In this document: one piece after another, positions 133 to 30,840 of the stretch
Numbering within the stretch: the stretch's first letter is position 1
How the letters are laid out: each line of letters starts with the position of its first letter
Assembly: GCA_016791385.1 (NCBI GenBank)
Contig: JAEUMR010000072.1
Location: forward strand, 58,931-122,930
DNA length: 64,000 bases
Direction of reading: 5' to 3'
Source: Hyphomonadaceae bacterium
GTDB lineage: Bacteria > Pseudomonadota > Alphaproteobacteria > Caulobacterales > Aquidulcibacteraceae
Program-made: the position numbers and the translations under genes
The notes under the pieces: generated by a model
The model's database searches: none
Seen by the model: the letters and a program-made list of their open reading frames with translations, nothing else
What the model was told of the DNA's origin: nothing

Positions 133-3100
133 ATGCAGATAAAGAGTTTGCTCATCGCCAATCGAGGCGAGATCGCCCTGCGCGTCATCCGCGCGGCGCG
201 CGAATTGGGCGTTGAGACCTTCGCCGTCTATTCAGCCGACGACGCCAACGCGCCGCACGCAGCGCTCGCCGATCACGCCCTCGCCCTGAGCGGGATCGGG
301 CCGCGCGCTTACCTCGATCAAGCGCAGATCGTCGGCGCGGCGCGCGGGCGCGCACAGGCGATCCACCCAGGCTATGGCTTTCTCAGCGAGAACGCAGCGT
401 TCGCGCGCGCCGCCGCCGCCGCTGACATTATCTTCATCGGGCCCTCACCTGAGACCCTCGATCTGTTCGGCGACAAGGCCAAAGCGCGCAGCTTCGCCAG
501 CGATCTCGGTGTGCCGATCCCCACCGGCACGCCGCACGATTGTAGCGCCGAGGACGCCCGCGCCCTGCTGGCCTCGATGGGGCCGAACGGCAAAATCGCC
601 GTCAAGGCGCTGTCAGGCGGCGGCGGGCGGGGTATTCGCTTCGTCAGCGCCGCTGACGATATGGACGAGACATTCGAGCGCTGCCGCGCCGAAGCGCGGC
701 TCTCGTTCGGTGATGATCGCCTCTACGCCGAGGAGATGATCGCCAATGCCCGCCACGTGGAGGTTCAAGTGGTCGGCGACGGCGAGGGCGCTGTTCACCT
801 CGGCGAGCGAGACTGCACGCTGCAGCGGCGCAACCAAAAGTTGGTCGAAATCGCGCCCGCGCCATTCCTGACCGACGCTACCCGCCGCAAGCTGCATGAA
901 GCCGCCCTCAAGCTCGCGACTGCGGCCCGGCTGCGCGGCGTCGCCACTTTCGAATTTCTGCTCTCAGGCGCGGGCTCGCGATCGCCGCGTTTTGTCTTCA
1001 TCGAAGCCAATCCGCGCATTCAGGTCGAGCACACGATCACCGAGGAAATCACCGGCGTTGACCTGGTTCGGGCCCAGATCGAAATCGCAAGCGGCCGCTC
1101 GCTGGCCGAATTGGGGCTCGCCGAGCGCTCGCCCAGCGCGCGCGGCAGCGCCATCCAAATTCGCGTCAACGCCGAGATCGTCAGCGCCGCGGGTGCCATT
1201 CAATCCGCAGGCGGCCGGATCAGCGCGTTCCATCCCCCCGGCGGGCCTGGGGTGCGGATCGATTCCGCCGCCCGCGCCGGCATGCAAAGCAATCCCGCCT
1301 TCGATTCACTGCTGGCTAAGCTGATCGTTCGTGACAGCGACTACCCACGCGCGCTCACCCGCACCCGCGAAGCGTTGAGGGAATTCTTGATCGAGGGCGT
1401 TCCGACCAATCTCGCCTTCGTCCGCAGCATTGTCGGCCGCCCCGAGGCGGAGAGCTATGACGTGCATACTGCCTTCGTGGAGGAACACTGGTCCGAACTC
1501 GTCGCGACGGCGCAGGGCCTCGCTCCTGTTCAGACCAGCGCCACCTCGCCCATCGGCAGCGCGGCGGAAACACCGATCGCGCCACCAGGGGCCGACGCCG
1601 TCAGCGCACCCATGCAAGGCACAGTCGTGCATCTCGCCGTTAGCGTTGGCGATCATGTTGCGCCGGGCGATCCGATCGTCGTGCTCGAAGCCATGAAGAT
1701 GGAGCACGTCGTCAGCGCCGATCGCGCTGGCCGCATCATCGCCGTTCACGCCGGCGCCGGCGACATCGTCACCGCCGGCGCGGTGATCGCCTTCCTCGCT
1801 CCCGGCGATGCGCCCGAAGAAAGCAAGCGCACGGCAGCCGAAATCGATCTCGATCAGATCAGGCCTGATTTGGCCGAAATTCAGGCCCTGCACGCGTTTG
1901 GTCTTGACGAGAACCGGCCTGAGGCGGTCGCCAAGCGGCGCAAAGCCAACAAGCGCACCGCGCGCGAAAACATCGCTGACCTTTGTGACGACGGCGCCTT
2001 CGTCGAGTACGGTGCGCTCGCCGTCGCCGCGCAACGCACGCGGCGCTCGCTCGATGACTTGCGCCGCGCCACCCCCGCAGACGGGCTTGTCGCCGGCCTG
2101 GGCGCCGTGAACGGCGCACATTTCGGCGCCGAGGCCGCGCAATGCGCCATCATGGCCTACGACTTCACGGTGCTCGCAGGCACCCAGGGGTACATGAACC
2201 ACCGCAAGAAGGATCGCGTGCTGCACCTTGCCCGCGATTGGCGCCTGCCCACGATCATCTTCACCGAGGGCGGCGGCGGCCGGCCAGGCGACACCGACCT
2301 CCTCGCCCCGACTTGGCTTGAGATGACGACATTCCGCGACTACGCGGCGCTAAGCGGGCTCGTTCCGCGCATCGCCATCAATGCCGGATACAGCTTCGCC
2401 GGTAATGCCGCGCTGGTCGGCTTGAGCGATGTCGTCATCGCCACCGAGGATTCCAGTATCGGCATGGGCGGCCCGGCGATGATTGAAGGCGGGGGTCTGG
2501 GTGTTGTCCCTCCGGGCGAGGTCGGCCCCACCGCTTCGCAAGCGCCGGCTGGCGTTGTTGATCTTGTGGTCAAGGACGAAGCCGAAGGCGTCGCCGCCGC
2601 GAAAAAGTACCTCGCATATTTTCAGGGACCGCTGCGCGAATGGCGTTGCACAGATCAGCGTCTGCTACGCCACCTCATCCCCGAAAACAGGATGCGCGTG
2701 TACGACATCCGCAAAGTCATCGAGACGCTTGCGGACGATGATTCCGTTTTGGAGCTGCGGGGCGCTTTCGGCCGCGGCATGGTCACCGCGCTGATCCGCA
2801 TCGAAGGCCACCCGTTCGGCCTGATCGCCAACGACCCCAGCCACCTCGCTGGCGCCATCGACGCCGACGGCGCGGACAAGGCCGCGCGTTTTCTGCAATT
2901 GTGCGACGCTTTCAACCTCCCCGTGATTTCGCTCTGCGACACGCCAGGGTTCATGGTTGGCCCCGCCGCCGAGAAGACTGGGCTCGTGCGTAAGGTCTCG
3001 CGGCTTTTTCTGATCGGCGCGCAGATGCGCGCGCCGATGTTCACGATCGTCTTGCGAAAGGGCTACGGGCTCGGCGCCCAGGGCATGACCGCCGGTCATT

Positions 3101-11493: not shown

Positions 11494-11568
11494 TGGAGCG
11501 GGCGATGAGATTCGAACTCACGACCCCAACCTTGGCAAGGTTGTGCTCTACCCCTGAGCTACGCCCGC
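11494..11568 (-). tRNA. tRNA-Gly (GCC anticodon)
   Basis: Read on the minus strand, the gene starts GCGGGCG and ends CGCCCGC-T-CCA, giving a perfect 7-bp acceptor stem with an encoded CCA end. The D-arm (AGCTCAGGGGTAGAGC), the anticodon stem AACCT/AGGTT with loop containing GCC, and the T-arm with GTTCGAATC are all present. The flanking gaps 11325-11493 and 11569-11697 show no further gene. Confidence 0.96.
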
Positions 11569-21971: not shown

Positions 21972-24374
21972 ATGACCGACGACGCCTATCATGCCGAGGG
22001 GAGAATCCCCTCCGTCGCCACTTCCACGGCCGCGCGGCTGGCGTTGAAGCGCGCTGCGCTTTCCGTCGGCGCGGCGATGGTCGGCCTCTACGGGCTCGGC
22101 GCGGTGTTAACCTATTCGCCCGAAGACCCCAGCCTCAACACGGCGACCGACGGGCCGACGCATAATCTGTTCGGCGGGCCGGGCGCTGTCGTCGCCGATC
22201 TCGCCATCCAAGTTCTCGGCGCGGCCGCGCCGCTGGCAATGGGCGCGCTTCTGGCTGCGGGCGCGCTGCGCATTTGGCGCAAGCAATTGGTCGCGCGCAT
22301 CGATAAGCGCCGCGTGCTGACAGCGACGCTTGGCGTTGCCCTGCTCGCCGCCGCCGCCGCCACCATTCCAACGCCGGAAGGCTGGCCGCTCGCGGCTGGC
22401 TTCGGCGGCCTGATCGGCGACGGCGTTTCGCATCTGATCGCCGGCATCGCGTCAGCGCCGGGGCTGCCGTTCCCGGTGGTGCTGACGGGCATCGTCTGCG
22501 CGCTGGGCGGCCTGCTCGCCAGCGGCTGGGCGTTCCAGGTGCGCGCGCAGGACGTCAAGAGCGCAGCGCAACTGGCGCAACGCGCAGCCGGCGCTGGCGC
22601 AGGCGCCGCGCAGCGCGCGATCAAGCAGGTTTCCGAGCGCAGCCCGCGCGCTGAAGAAGCGCCGCGCATCGAGCATACGCGTGAGCCCGAACGCGTGCGC
22701 CCCGCGCCCGCGCCGCGGGCCGAGCGCACTGTCGCCATGCCCTCCACGCGCCGCAGCGAAGCGGACGAAGCGCCCGCGCCGCAGCAGCAGCGCCGCGAGC
22801 GCGCGCCTGCACCCCCGCGCGCCGAGAAGCGCGCGCCCAAGCACCACGCCACCACCGCGTTCGGCCGCGAATTCGAGCTGCCGGACACCGATCTGCTCGC
22901 CACGCCAAAGCAGCGCGTGACGCAAACCGATGCGCAAACGCTGCACCAGATGAGCCGCCAGCTCGAAGGCGTGCTGGCCGATTTCGGCGTGCAGGGCGAA
23001 GTGCTGTCGGCGCGCCCGGGCCCGGTGGTGACGCTGTTCGAATTCGAACCGGCGGCCGGCGTGAAATCTTCGCGCGTCATCGGCCTTTCCGACGACATCG
23101 CCCGCTCCATGAGCGCGACCGCCGCGCGCGTGGCTGTCATTCCCGGCCGCAACGCCATCGGCATCGAGCTGCCGAACGCCAAGCGCGAGACGGTGTATCT
23201 GCAGACGCTGCTCAACAGCGCCTCGTTCGCGGGCACGCAAGGCGATCTGCCGCTGGCGCTGGGCGAGACCATCGAAGGCGACCCCTTCGCCGCCGATCTC
23301 ACCAAGATGCCGCACCTGCTGATCGCCGGCACCACCGGCTCGGGCAAGTCGGTCGGCATCAACGCCATGATCCTGTCGCTGCTCTACCGGCATACGCCCG
23401 ATGAGTGCCGCTTCATCATGATCGACCCGAAGATGCTGGAACTCAGCGTCTATGAGGGCATCCCGCACCTCTTGCACCCCGTCGTTACCGATCCGAAGAA
23501 AGCCGTCGTCGCGCTGAAATGGACCGTGCGCGAGATGGAGGACCGCTACCGGCGCATGTCCAAGCTCGGCGTGCGCAACATCACCGGCTACAACGAACGC
23601 GTCCGCGATGCGCTCGAGCGCGGCGAGCGGCTCGAACGCACCGTGCACGCGGGCTTCGATCCCACTTCAGGCGAGCCGATCTACGAAACCCGCGAGCTGC
23701 CGCTCGAGCCGATGCCCTACATCGTCGTCGTCATCGACGAGATGGCCGATCTGATGATCACGGCCGGCAAGGAAATCGAAGCGGCGGTGCAGCGGCTGGC
23801 GCAAATGGCGCGCGCGGCGGGCATCCACGTCATCATGGCGACGCAGCGCCCCAGCGTCGACGTCATCACCGGCACCATCAAGGCCAACTTCCCGACCCGC
23901 ATCTCCTACCAGGTCACCAGCAAGATCGACAGCCGCACCATCCTCGGCGAACAAGGCGCCGAACAGCTGCTCGGCCAGGGCGACTTGTTGTTCATGGCCG
24001 GCGGCGGGCGCATCCGCCGCTTGCACGGCCCGTTCGTCACCGACGCCGAAGTCGAGCGCGTGGTCGACATGCTGAAGGCGCAAGGCGCGCCGCAATATCG
24101 CACCGACGTCACCGCCGAGCCGAACGAGAACGCCGACGAAGACAATCCCGAATTGTTCGATGCCGATGGCGGCGGCGACGATCTGTTCGAGCGCGCCGTC
24201 GAGATCGTGCGCCGCGACCGCAAGGCCTCCACCTCCTACCTGCAGCGCCGCCTGCAGATCGGCTACAACCGCGCCGCCACCCTGATCGAAAAGATGGAAA
24301 AGGCGGGAATCATCTCGGAAGCCAATGCGGCCGGGAAGCGGGATATTCTGGTCGATGTGGTGGATGAGGATTAA
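21972..24374 (+). CDS. ftsK: DNA translocase FtsK
   Basis: The 800-residue protein has about four N-terminal membrane helices (to about residue 190) and a Pro/Ala/Arg-rich linker (about 200-290). The motor domain carries Walker [13 protein letters not shown] (near residue 455) and Walker [14 protein letters not shown]-terminal winged-helix gamma domain ([22 protein letters not shown]...) recognises the polar KOPS sequences. It pumps chromosomal DNA at the division septum. Length and domain order are normal. No strong ribosome site precedes ATG 21972. Confidence 0.95.
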
Positions 24375-24439
24375 GGGGTTTCCAGCGACACGGCTCTGAG
24401 ACTCGGGTATGCTGTTCACGTCAGTTCAGTGGACATTGC

Positions 24440-24814
24440 GTGAAAAAACCTGATTTGTCGGAGCAGACTTGGATCGGTGCCGCTATCATCGCAGTGGGCG
24501 GTGTGGGGGCGGTGGTCGGCATCGCGGCAATATTCTCGCAAGAGCCGAATGTGTTGCTTGCAATCGGCATGGGGTCAGGCTGGGCGTTGTTTCTTGCGCT
24601 GCTTGTTAGCAACTCTTGGCTGAGGCGACGCGTCTCCGATCTGGAAGCCGACCTGCTCGACGCCCGAAATCAAGCGGCGACCTGGGCTGAGACAGCGAAG
24701 AGCGTTTCTGATGCCTCGCTAGGCGCAGTGAACACAATTCGCCGCGCTGAGCCACTCGACCGGCCGTCGACCCAGCCACCGAAGAGAACCCGCAAGCCGA
24801 AGAGCACAATGTAA
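24440..24814 (+). CDS. Small two-span membrane protein with coiled coil, accessory
   Basis: I do not recognise this 124-residue protein. It starts at GTG 24440 and has two hydrophobic helices (about 12-32 and 38-58). A helical, probably coiled-coil segment (RRRVSDLEADLLDARNQAATW) and a Lys/Pro/Arg-rich tail follow. Its TAA overlaps the ATG of the beta-family gene (TAATG), implying coupled translation and a shared function. Base composition drops relative to ftsK from here on. As a membrane partner of a putative effector pair it could anchor or sense, but that is inference. Confidence 0.65.
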   Translation: MKKPDLSEQTWIGAAIIAVGGVGAVVGIAAIFSQEPNVLLAIGMGSGWALFLALLVSNSWLRRRVSDLEADLLDARNQAATWAETAKSVSDASLGAVNTIRRAEPLDRPSTQPPKRTRKPKSTM

Positions 24815-25911
24815 TGGCGAAGCACAGTTCCGCCCTCCTCGAAGGCATTACGTACCTGCCTGCGATCCGATCAAGGCAAGCCGAGCTTCGCGGATACCGT
24901 GAACTCCGTGCCGAGACCAAAGCCACTCTGCGGCCAATAGTTTCATTGGGGAAGCTCGGTCGCGTCGACGACCCTGCGCGAGTGCTTGAAGCGATCAACG
25001 CAGCTGCTGCTGGGACATATTTTCTCGACCTGAATACCATGCCGGGACAACAATGCGCTGGTTGGGAAGGTCTCTGCGATCCGGCGGACAACTACGCGCG
25101 CTGGAGAATGTTCGCGGCTCTGTCGGAGAATGCGATACCGGTTGCGTTGTTGCAGGATGGCGCGCTTGAGCGCGCTTTCGTCAAACAAGTGCAGGCGCTG
25201 GAGGCGAGTTATGGCATCGTCATCGCTCGCTCCCGCCGTCCGGGCCGCGATCTTGGCGCGCTGCAAGCCGCGCTTTCGGCCGTGGACGACGTGAACAATC
25301 TCCTGATCGTTCTGGATTTCGGGTACATTCGGGGCGCGATGGACGTGCGCGAAACCGAGGCTCGCCAAGTTATCACGGCGCTTCGCACAATTGACGGGGC
25401 CGCGCGGATCGCAATCCTCGCGTCGAGCTACCCAAGAGCGGTCACTGCATTTGGCGAATTGAGAGGGAGCCTCGAAATCGTCGAAAGAGCTTTCCACTAT
25501 CGGCTTGGCGGCGACGACGTAGCCATCTACGGCGACCACGCGTCAATCTATCCTGAGTATTTTGAGCCAAGCGTCAGTCGGTGGGTGCCCCGCATCGACT
25601 ACTGCACAGACAATGCCTGGATTTATCGACGTCACAGAGATGCCGAGGTCGATGGAAAAATGACTAGCGGCTACGTTATCTGCGCCCGGCAGATCACGGC
25701 CCTGCCAGAGTGGGAGCCAGAGTTTGCAACGACCGCCTGGGGGGCGGGCATCATTCAGCAGACGGCAACATCCGGCTCAGCTCCTCAGGGTTTTGGCTCC
25801 CCGTCAAACTGGATCGCTGCACGCTTGAACATGCACATCGAACGACAGAATGCTCTAGCAACGCGCATCGGGGACTTTGACATGTGGTCGGAGGACGATG
25901 GCGAAGACTAA
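24814..25911 (+). CDS. Beta-family (sce7725-like) protein, accessory
   Basis: The 365-residue soluble protein fits the pattern of the beta-protein family (phage-derived name; Pfam Beta_protein as I remember it). An early YLPAIRSRQAELRGYREL segment is followed by an IRPI-like TLRPIVSLGKLG. The rest has a TIM-barrel-like alternation of strands and helices (YFLDLNTMP, NAIPVALLQDG, NLLIVLDFGYIRGA, RIAILASSYPRA). In Sorangium the sce7725 and sce7726 genes are neighbours, and the facing gene here looks like sce7726, which supports the call. Codon use is relaxed: two sampled 60-base lines inside it are 47% and 48% GC, against 75% in a line of ftsK. Biochemical role is unknown to me. Confidence 0.6.
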   Translation: MAKHSSALLEGITYLPAIRSRQAELRGYRELRAETKATLRPIVSLGKLGRVDDPARVLEAINAAAAGTYFLDLNTMPGQQCAGWEGLCDPADNYARWRMFAALSENAIPVALLQDGALERAFVKQVQALEASYGIVIARSRRPGRDLGALQAALSAVDDVNNLLIVLDFGYIRGAMDVRETEARQVITALRTIDGAARIAILASSYPRAVTAFGELRGSLEIVERAFHYRLGGDDVAIYGDHASIYPEYFEPSVSRWVPRIDYCTDNAWIYRRHRDAEVDGKMTSGYVICARQITALPEWEPEFATTAWGAGIIQQTATSGSAPQGFGSPSNWIAARLNMHIERQNALATRIGDFDMWSEDDGED

Positions 25912-26735
25912 CGGCTGTTCCGACGCCTAAGTATAGGCCCAGCCGGCGAGTGCACTAGTAGCGGATGACCGTGCTCAATCTCAAAGTTTGGCACCGAAAG
26001 AGCGCCCTCTTCGGGTCGCGTGTCCCGATTGCGCCCCTTCCGGTGCAAGGCCGACACCGCCGAAAGCGTTCCTCTCGCGGCGCGGTCTGACAAGAATGCC
26101 AGGTGCTTTGCGCGGTATCGTGCCTTCACTGCATTGCGGGCTGCGTTTACAAGATCCGCCTCTGGCAGTCTCATTGCCAGCTCATGCAGCTCATGACGCG
26201 CGAGGCGTTGCGCGTTCCGAACCCCGTTGCAGAAAAGCAAATGCTTGAGTTCCGAGGCAGTCATGAGCTGGATTGAAGCTTCGCGGGCCAAGGTCCGTTT
26301 TCGCGCCCGTTGCCGCTCCTTCAACGAACCGTCTCGGCCAACTACCCAAACTCCAACACCGCCACTGGCAAGCTGAAGCGCCTTCTCCTCGAAGCGTGGA
26401 GCAACGACCAAGATCACCTTCTCGAAGGCCCGATTCAGCGACTCCATTTGACCTTCGAGGCGAGTGAGAGAGTCCGCCGGCGACTTGATCTCAAACGCAA
26501 CGAGCGACCCATTCGCGAGCACAACATCGGCGCGCCTCGTCCAGTCAGCGATTACCATCTCGGAAATAATCACTGCATCATCGTCAATGGCGCCGCTGTC
26601 AAACAGGCGATCAATGACGGCGGCCTTCAGATCGGCCTCATATGGCAGCAAGAACGGGCGCATCTCACGATCATGGGCGGCAGCGATTGAAGAATGGTGG
26701 TCTACGCCGCCTTCTCGCACCACCCTGGCCTCCAT
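25908..26735 (-). CDS. sce7726-like protein with PD-(D/E)xK-style nuclease motif
   Basis: The 275-residue protein has, near its N-terminus, DREMRPFLLPY. A nuclease-type core follows with Glu59, then RRADVV (Asp70), then FEIKS (Glu82-x-Lys84) and DSLTRLEGQ. That spacing and the RAD...EIKS.xD.L.RL pattern are what I recall for the sce7726 family. The C-terminal half is helical and Arg/Ala-rich. ATG 26735 is preceded by TCAGGAGAG. It converges on the beta-family gene with a 3-base overlap of stops. Catalysis of nucleic-acid cleavage is an inference from the motif; the second half may hold a target-binding part. Confidence 0.6.
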   Translation of the reverse strand: MEARVVREGGVDHHSSIAAAHDREMRPFLLPYEADLKAAVIDRLFDSGAIDDDAVIISEMVIADWTRRADVVLANGSLVAFEIKSPADSLTRLEGQMESLNRAFEKVILVVAPRFEEKALQLASGGVGVWVVGRDGSLKERQRARKRTLAREASIQLMTASELKHLLFCNGVRNAQRLARHELHELAMRLPEADLVNAARNAVKARYRAKHLAFLSDRAARGTLSAVSALHRKGRNRDTRPEEGALSVPNFEIEHGHPLLVHSPAGPILRRRNSR

Positions 26736-27360
26736 CTCTCCTGACGATATAGTTGCGATGAGTCCGCTCGGCCACACTGCCAAGCGGTTCGATGACGAAA
26801 CCACCCAGCCCAAAAAAATCTATCCGCCCCCTCCCGCACTGCACTTACACTCCCTCTCATCCCACACCGGGAGGATTTCGAAGTGCACCGAACCTTTGAG
26901 ATGTGTGGGATGCGGTCGAGCGTGGGGCGAAGCTATCCGCCCGCCGCCGGCGGGGTGAAAAACCGCCGGGTCCGCGCTCTCATCGGTGAGAGCGGCGCAC
27001 GCGGCCGGCTTAGCCGCCTCCAGGAGTGAAAAACCTCCCGCGACGGCGCCGGCGAAGCAACGATCGCAGCGGGCGCGCGTTCGAGCGCACCGTCCGCTTG
27101 CCGCTCCCCAAGGGCGACGAGCGGAAAGACTAATCCCGTAGGCGCTTGAACGCGCGCCCGCCCTCCTCTATCGCGCTCGCGTCAGGCTCTGACGCGGCGG
27201 GTTTTGCGTGCGATCAAGCGCGCTCATGCTGCGCTGCGGTAGGGCTGGCGCCGAGATGAGTATTTCCCAAGCGCGCGCCAAGCCTCGCCGCGCCCCGCCG
27301 CGGCTGGTGCTGCTCCGGGGCGCGCTCGGCCCGCGCCCAGCCAAGCGAACCGCCCCGCCG
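26736..27360. other. Long gene-poor gap with dense RNA-like structure and mini-ORFs
   Basis: This 625-base stretch has no gene of normal size. On the plus strand it holds a 10-bp inverted repeat (26858-26867 with 26903-26912). Perfect hairpins follow at 26947-26969, 26975-26994 and 27001-27017. A weaker one lies at 27023-27038 and another at 27101-27124, before a terminator at 27178-27205. Two loops share GTGAAAAA. Read as protein, a 48-codon GTG frame (26883-27029) has a good GGGAGGA site. It overlaps, as GTGA, a 35-codon basic frame (27026-27133) that has CAGGAG just before it. Either a structured RNA of about 350 bases or a pair of coupled mini-genes is possible. I could not match it to RNase P RNA, tmRNA, 6S or SRP RNA. 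Confidence 0.4.
27178..27205 (+). terminator. Hairpin terminator closing the structured gap
   Basis: CGCGTCAG and CTGACGCG form a perfect 8-bp stem with a 3-base loop, followed by GCGGGTTTT. No normal gene lies upstream on the plus strand since 25911, so it suggests a separate short transcript ending here. Confidence 0.6.
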
Positions 27361-28170
27361 ATGCAGAAGCCCACGCCGCCGCCGCTCCACACCGAGGAAA
27401 AAGGCACGTTCTCCGAACGGGTGCTGTCGATCCACCACTACACCGACAAGCTGTTCAAGTTCCGCACCACGCGCCCGCCGAGCTTCCGCTTCCGCTCCGG
27501 CGAGTTCGTGATGATCGGCCTGCGCACCGAAGGCGGGGGCCCGCTGCTGCGCGCCTATTCGGTCGCCTCGCCGGCCTGGGACGAAGAGCTCGAATTCTAC
27601 TCGATCAAAGCGCCGGACGGGCCGCTGACATCGCGTCTGCAGCACATCGAGCCGGGCGATGAAGTGCTGGTGGGCAAGAAGCCGACGGGCACGCTGGTGC
27701 TCGATGCGCTGACGCCGGGCAAGCGGTTGTTCCTGTTCTCGACCGGCACCGGCTTTGCTCCGTTCGCCAGCCTGCTGCGTGATCCGGAAACGTACGAGAA
27801 GTTCGCGCAGGTGATCGTCACGCACACGACGCGGGTGGCGGCGGAGCTGGCCTACAGCCAGGAAATCGTCGATGGCCTCGCAGAAGATCCGCTGGTGAGC
27901 GAGGCGGCGTGGGGGCGCGTGGTGCGCTACGCCACCTGTACGCGCGAAGCCGCCGCCCGCACCGGCCGCATCACCGACCTGATCGCCAGCGGCAAACTCT
28001 GCACCGATCTCGGCATCGAGCCGCTCTCCCCCGCCACCGACCGGGCCATGATCTGCGGCTCGCTGCCAATGATCCAAGACACAGCGAAACTGCTCGAAGG
28101 GCTGGGCTTTGTTGAAGGATCGAACGCAGCGCCAGCCGCTTACGTGATCGAGAAGGCGTTCGCCGGCTAG
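27361..28170 (+). CDS. fpr: Ferredoxin--NADP(+) reductase
   Basis: The 269-residue protein has the FAD-binding LLRAYSVASPAW segment (R-x-Y-S-x-x-S/T type) near residue 65 and a nucleotide-binding FSTGTGFAPFASLLRDPETYEKF. A C-terminal RAMICGSLPMI precedes an AAPAAYVIEKAF ending. These features place it in the bacterial subclass of plant-type FNRs, which pass electrons between NADPH and ferredoxin or flavodoxin for redox stress and Fe-S work. ATG 27361 is preferred because the family length starts there; the frame is open to 27208 but that part is Arg-rich and uncharacteristic. Confidence 0.88.
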   Translation: MQKPTPPPLHTEEKGTFSERVLSIHHYTDKLFKFRTTRPPSFRFRSGEFVMIGLRTEGGGPLLRAYSVASPAWDEELEFYSIKAPDGPLTSRLQHIEPGDEVLVGKKPTGTLVLDALTPGKRLFLFSTGTGFAPFASLLRDPETYEKFAQVIVTHTTRVAAELAYSQEIVDGLAEDPLVSEAAWGRVVRYATCTREAAARTGRITDLIASGKLCTDLGIEPLSPATDRAMICGSLPMIQDTAKLLEGLGFVEGSNAAPAAYVIEKAFAG

Positions 28171-28242
28171 CCTTGGTGAACGCGGATTAGCGAAACTTGC
28201 TGGCCCGTTTCTAAAGCTTTCGCGTGCATTGTAGCGCACGGG

Positions 28243-30840
28243 ATGCAGAAAGCGGCGGCACTTCAAAGAGCGATGGCGCGGACACGCGCGCGCAGGCGCA
28301 CGCCTGGGATCGCGAACGACAACGCGCTCGTACAAGCGCCAGCCTTCGAGCCGCCGGCGCCCGATCCGCTCTTTCTGGAAGAGATGGTCGATGCCTTCCT
28401 CGGCGCCGCGCGGCCCAAGCCCGCGGACGAAGAGCCCCCGTTCGATCCCCCGGACGAAGCCGATCTCGAAGCCGCGCCCGAGAGCGAAGACGAAGACCCG
28501 CCGTTCGATCCGCCGGAGTTCGAAGAGCCGCTTGTGCTCTCGCCCCCGCCCGGCGCGGCCGAGCTGCTGCTCGAACCCGCCAACGAAAATCCCGAGCCGC
28601 CCCGCCGGGTGCTCGGCCCCGCCCGCGCCGAAGCCGCGCCGCGCGAGCAAAAGCTCCCCGCCCTCCGCATCCACGCCAGCTGGGACCGCCCGCAGGTCGC
28701 CGACCTGTTCGCCGCCTTCGCCCACGATGATCGCTGCGCGCGCGCTGAGATCAGCGTCGATCGCGGCGGCATCGACGCCGCCATCGTGCGCTTCAGCAGC
28801 GAAGAGAGCCCCGATCTGCTGCTGCTCGACACCACCTTGCGCGGCGCGGCCATGCTGGCCGGGCTCGACCGGCTCGCCGCGATCCTGGCGCCGGAAACCA
28901 AGATCATCGTGCTCGGCGCCGTGAACGACGTGCCGTTGCTGCGCGAACTCGCCAGCCGCGGCATCGCCGAGTACATCGTGCCGCCGATCGGCGCCGACCA
29001 ACTCGTGCGCGCCGCCTGCAAGCTCTTTGTCAACGCCGATAAGACCCGCGTCGTCGCCGTGATCGGCGCACGCGGCGGCATCGGCGCCTCGACCATCGCG
29101 CAGAATGTCGCCTGGTCGATCGCCGAGCGCCAGCACGTCGGCGCGGCGCTGGTTGATCTCGATCTCGCCTTCGGCGCTGCCGCGTTCAGCTTCAATGCGC
29201 CGCCTTCAGAGGCCGTGGCGAAAATCGTCGGCGCCGCCGAAGATATGGACGACGCGATCGATCGGCTGATTGCCAAGCCCTACCCGCATCTCAAGCTGCT
29301 CACCGCACCCGCGGCGCTGCAACAGGATTTCGAACTCGACGCCACGACGCTGGAGGCGCTGCTCTCTACAGTGCGGCGCACGAGCCCTTACGTCGTGCTC
29401 GACCTGCCGCACGCCTGGAACGGCTGGGTCAAGCACGCGCTGACCAGCGCCGACGAAGTGCTGATCGTGGCGGGCCCTGACCTCGCCAGTTTGCGCAATG
29501 CTGACAATATGTGCCGCTTGCTGCGCGATGCGCGGCCTGCGGAACGCGCGCCGATGATCGTGCTGTCGATGACCGGCGTTCCCAAGCGTCCGGAAATCCC
29601 GGCCAAGGAATTCGCCGAAGCGCTCGGCGCAGATCCAGTTGCATCGCTCGCCTTCGACCCGGCGCTGTTTGGCGCTGCGGCGATGGACGGACAAATGCTC
29701 GCCCATGTCGATCCTCACTCGCGCGCGGCGGCGACGATTGACCTTATCGCGAGCGCGATCACAGGCCGCGAACCGCTGAAGGCATCGCTGCCCAAGCCAG
29801 CTCTGCCGCCAGTGTATCAAAGCCTCGAACGCAAGTACGCGATGGCCGCGCAGGCGATGGCTTCAGCGCCCGCGCCGGCAAACGACGTGCTCGAGGCGGC
29901 GAATGAGAACGCGCCCTTGCCAGCTGAGCCGGAAGCAAAGCCGGATGAAGCGCCGCTCGAACTCGTGCAGCAGGCGCCGCCTGAAACGGACCCAGCCATT
30001 GAACGCGCGCGCGCCGCCGCACAGGCGGAAGCGGACTTGAAAGCCAGCGCCCGCACGATTGGGCAAAGGCCGCGCCGCTTGCTGTGGGCCGCAAGCGCGG
30101 CCGTGACTTTGTCGGCGATCGGCGCATGGCAAATCACGGACCATCTCGGCGGCGCAGCGCCCGCGCCGTCGCAAGCCGCGGCGGCAACGCCGGCGGCTGC
30201 GCCTTCTCAAGTCCTCGCACCGGAAGCGGCGCTCACACGCTACAGCGACATCGTCGCGCAACTGGATGTCGCGCCCGATGCGGCGCTGGCCGATCTGCAA
30301 GCCCTGGCTGAGCAAGGCTACGCGCCGGCGCAATATCATCTCGCGAAGCTTTATGAAGAGGGAGAGCACGCGCCGCTCAATCTCACGCAAGCGCGGCAAT
30401 GGACCGAACGCGCGGCCGCGGCGGGCAATGTGCGGGCAATGCACGACCTTGGCGTCTATTATGCGCGCGGCGAAGGCGCTGCCCTCGACGAAGCGGCGGC
30501 GTTTCGCTGGTTCAGGCAGGCAGCCGAGTTCGACCTCGGCGACAGCCAATACAATCTCGGAATCCTCTACGAGCAAGGACGCGGCGTCACCGCCAATGCT
30601 GCGGAAGCGCTGTTCTGGTTCCTGCTGGCGGCGCGCCAGGGCGACGCCGACGCGGCGCGGCGCGCGGCGGACCTGCAAACGCGCGTCTCACCGCTTGACG
30701 CTGAGCAGGCGCGCACGCGCGCGCAGGCCTTCCGCGGGCGGACAGCGGACCCGGTCGCCAATGCGCTGCCTGTTATGAACCAAGCGCCCGCGGAAAGCAG
30801 CGCGCCTGCCCCGATTGCTGCGGCGGCGAGCGAGAGCTGA
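28243..30840 (+). CDS. CpaE/TadZ-like ATPase fused via a membrane helix to Sel1 repeats
   Basis: The 865-residue protein has an unusual layout. Residues 1-135 are acidic, Pro-rich and probably disordered. Residues about 140-262 form a receiver-like fold (PDLLLLDTTLRGAA, IIVLGAVNDV, EYIVPPIG). Residues about 268-520 are a MinD/CpaE-type ATPase with GARGGIGASTIAQN at 275-288 and a DLDLAFG segment. A Pro/Ala-rich linker leads to one membrane helix near 613-632, and residues about 690-800 hold Sel1 repeats (AQYHLAKLYEEGE, AMHDLGVYYARGEG, SQYNLGILYEQGRG). CpaE/TadZ positions Flp-pilus machinery at the pole, and Sel1 repeats mediate protein-protein contacts. No other pilus gene is nearby. A polar-localisation hub is an inference. 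ATG 28273 is an alternative start. Confidence 0.78.
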   Translation: MQKAAALQRAMARTRARRRTPGIANDNALVQAPAFEPPAPDPLFLEEMVDAFLGAARPKPADEEPPFDPPDEADLEAAPESEDEDPPFDPPEFEEPLVLSPPPGAAELLLEPANENPEPPRRVLGPARAEAAPREQKLPALRIHASWDRPQVADLFAAFAHDDRCARAEISVDRGGIDAAIVRFSSEESPDLLLLDTTLRGAAMLAGLDRLAAILAPETKIIVLGAVNDVPLLRELASRGIAEYIVPPIGADQLVRAACKLFVNADKTRVVAVIGARGGIGASTIAQNVAWSIAERQHVGAALVDLDLAFGAAAFSFNAPPSEAVAKIVGAAEDMDDAIDRLIAKPYPHLKLLTAPAALQQDFELDATTLEALLSTVRRTSPYVVLDLPHAWNGWVKHALTSADEVLIVAGPDLASLRNADNMCRLLRDARPAERAPMIVLSMTGVPKRPEIPAKEFAEALGADPVASLAFDPALFGAAAMDGQMLAHVDPHSRAAATIDLIASAITGREPLKASLPKPALPPVYQSLERKYAMAAQAMASAPAPANDVLEAANENAPLPAEPEAKPDEAPLELVQQAPPETDPAIERARAAAQAEADLKASARTIGQRPRRLLWAASAAVTLSAIGAWQITDHLGGAAPAPSQAAAATPAAAPSQVLAPEAALTRYSDIVAQLDVAPDAALADLQALAEQGYAPAQYHLAKLYEEGEHAPLNLTQARQWTERAAAAGNVRAMHDLGVYYARGEGAALDEAAAFRWFRQAAEFDLGDSQYNLGILYEQGRGVTANAAEALFWFLLAARQGDADAARRAADLQTRVSPLDAEQARTRAQAFRGRTADPVANALPVMNQAPAESSAPAPIAAAASES

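Follow-up and report, generated by a model that had tools for sequence, protein, structure and literature searches.

Do the three genes that follow ftsK in the window (the 64,000-nucleotide stretch of a Hyphomonadaceae contig that was analyzed as a whole) represent an undescribed trio, or do they belong to a known system? The first-pass annotation had read them as a membrane protein, a beta-family protein, and an sce7726-like protein forming a defence or other conflict module delivered by horizontal transfer. All three frames were indeed open (Table 1). ORF1 and ORF2 are coupled by a TAATG overlap at 24812-24816, as had been proposed, and ORF3 converges on ORF2, although the overlap of the two convergent genes is 4 bases (25908-25911) and not the 3 bases claimed. 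For ORF3, agreement with the homologues is better from another ATG, at 26663, and the longest frame begins at 26813.

Table 1. Features of the locus and content of the site behind ftsK in relatives (positions are those of the window)
Feature	Position	Strand	Description
ftsK	21972-24374	+	FtsK domains by Pfam; left anchor of variable site
ORF1 (Gop-like)	24440-24814	+	124 aa; GTG start
ORF2 (Beta protein)	24814-25911	+	365 aa; candidate antitoxin or sensor with a predicted TIM barrel
ORF3 (cII/sce7726 family)	25908-26735	-	275 aa from ATG at 26735; predicted PD-(D/E)xK nuclease fold
Short recurring sequence	26809-26839	+	Right side of variable site in relatives
ftsK site, G050			EcoRV-like enzyme and 5mC methylase
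ftsK site, G037 and G044			Type IIG pieces
ftsK site, G054			SIR2 and NACHT
ftsK site, G039			SIR2 and HerA
ftsK site, G058			LmuB with ABC-3C protein (Lamassu-like)
ftsK site, G047			OLD/AriA-like

At 59.5%, the GC content of the module was below that of the window (65.8%) and of ftsK (68.5%), and GC3 was 66, 65, and 64% in ORF1 to ORF3 versus 86% in ftsK. No other stretch of this length in the window was as low (minimum of 61.1% among non-overlapping stretches), so that the composition, on which the earlier reading could have failed, upheld it. The GC values of 47 to 48% quoted for the module do occur, in the 60-base lines starting at 24421, 25441, and 25621, but these are its lowest lines, and the 75% quoted for ftsK is likewise a high value, reached by 8 of its 40 lines. 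Neither flanking gene (ftsK on the left, an NAD-binding oxidoreductase on the right) is a phage gene. A search of 24300-27300 yielded neither a sigma-70-like promoter nor a terminator-like site (shuffled sequences gave 0.7 and 2.9 on average). At 27069-27161, in the gap that separates the trio from the following gene, lies an inverted repeat with arms of 20 bases that are 95% complementary and spaced by 53 bases.

ORF2 matched Pfam PF14350 (Beta_protein; E = 2.7e-40), PADLOC beta (1.5e-79), and, more weakly, PADLOC PD-Lambda-2_C (4.3e-7), whereas no NCBIfam model matched it. ORF3 matched NCBIfam NF033832 (sce7726) above the cutoff of the model (E = 2.2e-32) and PADLOC cll (4e-56). A tblastn search of 50,697 phage records returned four, three of them of phage P4 and one of Pasteurella phage Pmp11. 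P4 (NC_001609) carries gop (247-648, plus strand), beta (651-1718, plus strand), and cII, an sce7726 gene (1746-2540, minus strand), and the gene layout in Pmp11 is the same. Identity between ORF2 and P4 Beta was 32% over 97% of Beta (E = 4e-53), compared to 29% over 92% for Pmp11 Beta, and ORF3 and P4 cII were 39% identical over 188 aa (E = 6e-35). With a Beta protein recognized by both PF14350 and PADLOC beta and a convergent sce7726-family cII directly behind it, the locus is almost certainly a Gop-Beta-cII system. Since both the layout and the homology of the trio match P4, the possibility of an undescribed trio was discarded, and the statement of the first-pass annotation that no experimental description was known has to be withdrawn: in excerpts of Rousset et al. 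(2022; PMC9122126), cloned P4 gop-beta-cII protects Escherichia coli against lambda and P1, abortive infection is suggested as the mode of action, and Ghisotti 1990 is cited for the toxicity of Gop in the absence of Beta.

Identification of ORF1 depended on wider profiles. Four profile libraries (including Pfam, NCBIfam, and PADLOC) gave no match to ORF1 better than an E value of 0.03, and the PADLOC gop model gave none at an E value of ≤1. This model recognized P4 Gop (5e-70) and weakly a Rhodocyclus protein (L041; 2.5e-4) and missed the Aureimonas protein (L037) as well as ORF1. By BLASTP, ORF1 and P4 Gop were 30% identical over 46 aa (E = 8e-4), and identity in the alignment of the two was just 12%; the pairwise match to the Pmp11 protein was not significant (E = 1.5). 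However, a family HMM built from 22 proteins (some of them near-copies) at the Gop position of other loci retrieved ORF1 with an E value of 2.4e-11, the next best of 357 window ORFs scoring 0.59. After removal of the nearest relatives, those of Asticcacaulis (L032) and Aureimonas (L037), the remaining 20 proteins, among which near-copies of P4 and an alphaproteobacterial metagenome-assembled genome (MAG; L039) were retained, gave 4.7e-5, with the next best ORF at 0.94. ORF1 has two hydrophobic stretches, the latter with a GW pair, and a charged C-terminal part; the GW pair occurs at this place in 22 of the 23 family members, the window included, and is AW in the Aureimonas protein. Judged by its sequence, this small membrane protein 5′ of Beta is a divergent Gop, and it is predicted to be a membrane toxin.

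A structure model of Beta (pLDDT of 90.8, pTM of 0.90) yielded 14 PDB matches with E values of <0.001, all of them triosephosphate isomerases; the best match was modest (E = 1.1e-4; TM of 0.34 by query and 0.47 by target), and Beta is thus predicted to be a TIM barrel that is remote in detail. Residues D72, D168, S205, Y239, and D241, which are invariant or nearly so among 23 Gop-type Betas, lie within or just past predicted strands, mostly close to strand ends. Going by the strand limits rather than by coordinates, they would occupy positions expected of a barrel pocket.

P4 cII owes its name to a phenotype that marked it as a regulator. Six columns of the cII alignment (E59, D70, E82, K84, D88, and Q96, in a numbering that fits the start at 26735) were invariant in all 18 homologues, whose loci span every type of Beta partner. 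The cluster E59/D70/E82/K84, which the earlier reading had singled out and which thus proved conserved, was also kept in another alignment of 18 proteins from Gop-type loci that partly overlaps the former; the EIK motif had been ascribed to the second protein and is in fact in the sce7726 protein. In the model of cII (mean pLDDT of 82, with 182 of 275 residues at ≥90), a helix, three strands, a helix, and a strand follow each other. The sole PDB match with an E value of <0.001 was 3dnx (SPO1766; 5.1e-5), followed by 1y88, 2ph7, YaeQ, and Bax1 (5e-3 to 0.09), and AAA proteins appeared with low probability. The PDB titles of 3dnx, 1y88, and 2ph7 read "unknown function" or give no function; we take all three to have the PD-(D/E)xK nuclease fold. 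Both the core fold and the conserved E/D/ExK residues that characterize this fold are present in the cII model, which fits a PD-(D/E)xK nuclease whose activity is putative. Taken with the low GC content and the membrane partner, this conserved site leaves the earlier proposal standing as far as defence and transfer are concerned: the locus is probably a horizontally acquired module of defence type, although not an undescribed one.

Other Betas were collected by PF14350 searches of 60 genomes of the family, 398 of the phylum, and 299 of the order (overlapping sets, with matches in 2, 13, and 17 genomes, respectively). These gave 32 distinct loci, of which 30 were classed by the gene before Beta, after two fragments (L019 and L021) had been dropped; classes were assigned by eye from protein size and the HExxH motif, with flanks of 1.5 kb. 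The partner was Gop-like at two loci, both with cII; a peptidase of 163 to 186 aa at 13 (5 with cII); a peptidase of 294 to 442 aa at 11 (5 with cII, or 10 loci and 4 with cII when L008 and L024, which are 99.9% identical, are counted once); and another gene at 4, all with cII. At these loci, found by Beta alone, cII was a neighbour in 16 of 30 cases, always convergent and with at most 134 bases between its end and that of Beta, and none was seen within 1.5 kb in the other 14. The prediction that the homologues would not be scattered without the partner therefore had a mixed outcome: just over half of the Beta loci have cII, but every classed locus with a Gop-like gene does. A search with Gop-type Betas only gave 17 distinct loci (duplicates L038 = L032 and L049 = L042 being merged), 16 of them with Gop and a convergent cII. 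The cII frame of L053 is short, and at L042, which ends about 250 bases past the match, neither Gop nor cII is seen. Loci found with a cII query are biased to cII and were left uncounted in these tallies. A single-protein scan of genome contigs covered 83 stretches and gave no relative, and scanning with wide alignments (A1 and A3) was likewise of no use.

Gop-type loci were also found in phage and viral contigs, from a collection that is viral by construction. A mixed form, with sce7726, a convergent beta, an XRE-type protein, and a small gene, is carried by an Agrobacterium plasmid. In Mycolicibacterium phage Mycofy1 (L155:3501-5058), an unannotated sce7726 relative is convergent with a Beta-like protein (hhalign probability of 92%, E = 5e-7), and this pair sits behind the lysis genes.

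Partner class was clustered on a quick tree of 53 Betas (7 changes versus a mean of 24.8 after shuffling), from which fragments, L042, and some near-copies were omitted and in which other near-copies and loci from the cII query were included. Gop-type Betas lay on one side of one branch with a support of only 51%. The window Beta grouped with those of Aureimonas and Asticcacaulis (SH-aLRT of 100) and then with that of MAG L039 (99), all of Gop type; Asticcacaulis taihuensis (L038 = L032) belongs to the Caulobacterales, the order of the window. Presence of cII changed three times on the tree, which is not a fair test as some rows had been found via cII. The tree, with its long deep branches, fits an old Beta-cII pair in which cII was lost in some lines and the partner was exchanged. 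A wider reading, for which the case is evenly balanced, is that Beta and convergent cII are an old two-gene recognition core paired with membrane Gop, with short ImmA-like peptidases, or with long PD-lambda-2-type HTH-peptidases, so that Gop-Beta-cII and PD-lambda-2 would be one modular family sharing a TIM-barrel sensor, with the present module at a fixed site behind ftsK.

That site (24375-30800 in the window, L125 to L151 in relatives) is highly variable within the genus. Of the 30 genomes of the genus, 27 yielded an ftsK gene, and Beta was present in the window's own genome only, being absent from all 29 others (several of them incomplete). In all 26 relatives compared, the main DNA match to the window ended at 24372-24392, that is, at the ftsK stop codon (24372-24374), with short further matches at six loci. 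In the 1.5 kb that follow (a shorter stretch in one or two cases), 19 of the 26 had no match of >150 bases to any other, and the remaining regions fell into one set of four and one set of three. Genes of the right flank of the window reappeared further right in 21 of 25 relatives read. Cargo proteins at the site (17 proteins from 11 of these 25 relatives) were searched, and recognizable defence genes were present in 7 of 25 relatives when the ftsK site alone was scored (Table 1); G034, with an AAA protein, and G035, with an ImmA-like piece, are weaker cases. Four proteins had no PADLOC match (two from L135 and one each from L137 and L151), of which one was HIT-like and one ABC-3C-like by Pfam. 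Two genes in regions of lowered GC at the site (L135:16512-19217 and L137:17937-18650), with neither PADLOC nor Pfam matches, are candidate undescribed systems.

On the right side of the variable site, the short recurring sequence was matched in the same orientation in 15 of 25 relatives, again behind ftsK and in part weakly (E values up to 0.004), and in six of the seven relatives with defence genes it lies within about 270 bases of the last frame. This short sequence, noted in the window within 26809-26932, reads AAAAAATCTATCCGCCCCCTCC. Because partial copies occur elsewhere in the genomes (any match in 21 of 30), it could represent either a promoter or a repeat. Exact direct repeats of at least 9 bases were sought at both ends of the insert in the window and not found; border repeats in relatives were 30 bases long in G049, 18 in G056, and 9 in G035, G039, and G045. 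A pair of imperfect 17-base repeats in the window (24247 and 26620; 88%) was taken as chance, as was an Rfam mir-H3 match near the right side (34 bits versus a gathering score of 70), and a tRNA-linked insertion was rejected, the only tRNA of the window being at 11494-11568. In L136 (G054), the last 90 bases of ftsK recur with 75% identity about 1.3 kb past the stop, as a previous insertion might have left them. Within the order but in a different family (L034, G648), a peptidase-Beta system abuts an FtsK gene 74% identical to that of the window, convergently and 3 bases from its end. Among the matches listed, no paper combined the phrase "downstream of ftsK" with defence terms, and in view of this limit we make no claim that the site is unreported.

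What the system does in this chromosome can be argued from its parts. Chromosomal alphaproteobacterial Gop-Beta-cII is, in our judgment, likely a defence of the toxin-antitoxin-like abortive-infection type, in which Gop would be a small inner-membrane toxin and the TIM-barrel Beta, made from the same message through the TAATG coupling, would silence Gop and sense infection. Release of Gop would then damage the membrane, and the infected cell would stop. That Gop is a toxin held by Beta is probable. The putative cII nuclease, encoded on the opposite strand, might cut phage nucleic acid or make a signal read by Beta; that it is an active nuclease needed for defence is about as likely as not. As a further guess, read-through of cII antisense to Beta could occur, because the stops overlap and no terminator-like site was found. 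In excerpts of Vassallo et al. (2022; PMC9519451), the Beta-like gene of PD-lambda-2 is dispensable for neutralization of the toxin, and Beta may therefore be a sensor rather than an antitoxin.

The invariant PD-(D/E)xK-type site and the position of cII on its own strand would also suit a defence whose effector is cII, acting by cleavage of phage DNA, while Gop and Beta are an addiction pair that retains the genes in the genome. Convergent Beta-cII pairs with several kinds of upstream gene point the same way, to a cII independent of Gop; however, the 14 loci lacking a nearby cII indicate that Beta systems can exist without it, and the excerpts of PMC9519451 describe PD-lambda-2 with three components, the third related to the P4 antitoxin, and name no cII. 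We hold this order of roles to be rather unlikely. The low GC3, the restriction to a single genome of the genus, and the lack of a promoter-like match could instead betray an old insertion, decayed or silent and no longer selected for defence. Three frames are nevertheless open, the invariant Beta and cII residues are retained, gene order and coupling are intact, and the relatives in Aureimonas and Asticcacaulis retain the same trio, which makes a remnant quite improbable. Least probable of all is a set of phage or satellite genes whose role would be regulatory and not defensive: the Gop-type loci in phage and viral contigs favour it, with the reservation made above on that collection, but the window module is flanked by ftsK and an oxidoreductase gene rather than by phage genes, and other defence genes occupy the ftsK site in relatives.

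The locus extends a defence system of phage satellites to a free-standing chromosomal form in the Caulobacterales. Two alphaproteobacterial copies, those of the window and Aureimonas, are missed by the PADLOC gop profile, and the TIM barrel of Beta, the nuclease-type site of cII, and the GW-motif hairpin of Gop are parts that can be tested. For undescribed defence genes of the genus, the site behind ftsK offers a circumscribed region to search. On the modular reading, such a module would have come to rest in this genus at one fixed site, which in other species holds restriction-modification, SIR2-HerA, SIR2-NACHT, Lamassu-like, and OLD-like genes.

Compared with known systems, the locus shares with PD-lambda-2 the P4-antitoxin-related component, matched by Beta through PADLOC PD-Lambda-2_C. 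The other PD-lambda-2 components are a HigB-like protein and an Xre-peptidase, whereas the partner in the window is a membrane protein; membership was rejected since the 124-aa membrane-type protein 5′ of Beta has no HExxH motif and there is no peptidase partner. No open-access paper was found that names PD-lambda-2 together with sce7726. Excerpts from the literature list sce7725 along with sce7726 among the genes of mobile or variable regions in Pseudomonas aeruginosa and Leptospira. The third gene of the window is an sce7726 gene, but its partner is a Beta_protein; no sce7725 model matched Beta or its relatives, and one Acinetobacter candidate for sce7725 compared with Beta gave an hhalign probability of 3% (E = 0.015). 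P4 gop-beta-cII has the number, order, and orientation of genes and the convergent cII in common with the window, its proteins are of similar size (133, 355, and 264 aa versus 124, 365, and 275 aa), and homology extends to all three. The P4 trio belongs to a satellite, has its convergent genes 27 bases apart and an annotated terminator, and encodes a Gop within range of the PADLOC gop model, whereas the window trio lies beside ftsK in an alphaproteobacterial chromosome, with convergent genes that overlap, no terminator found, and a Gop outside that range.
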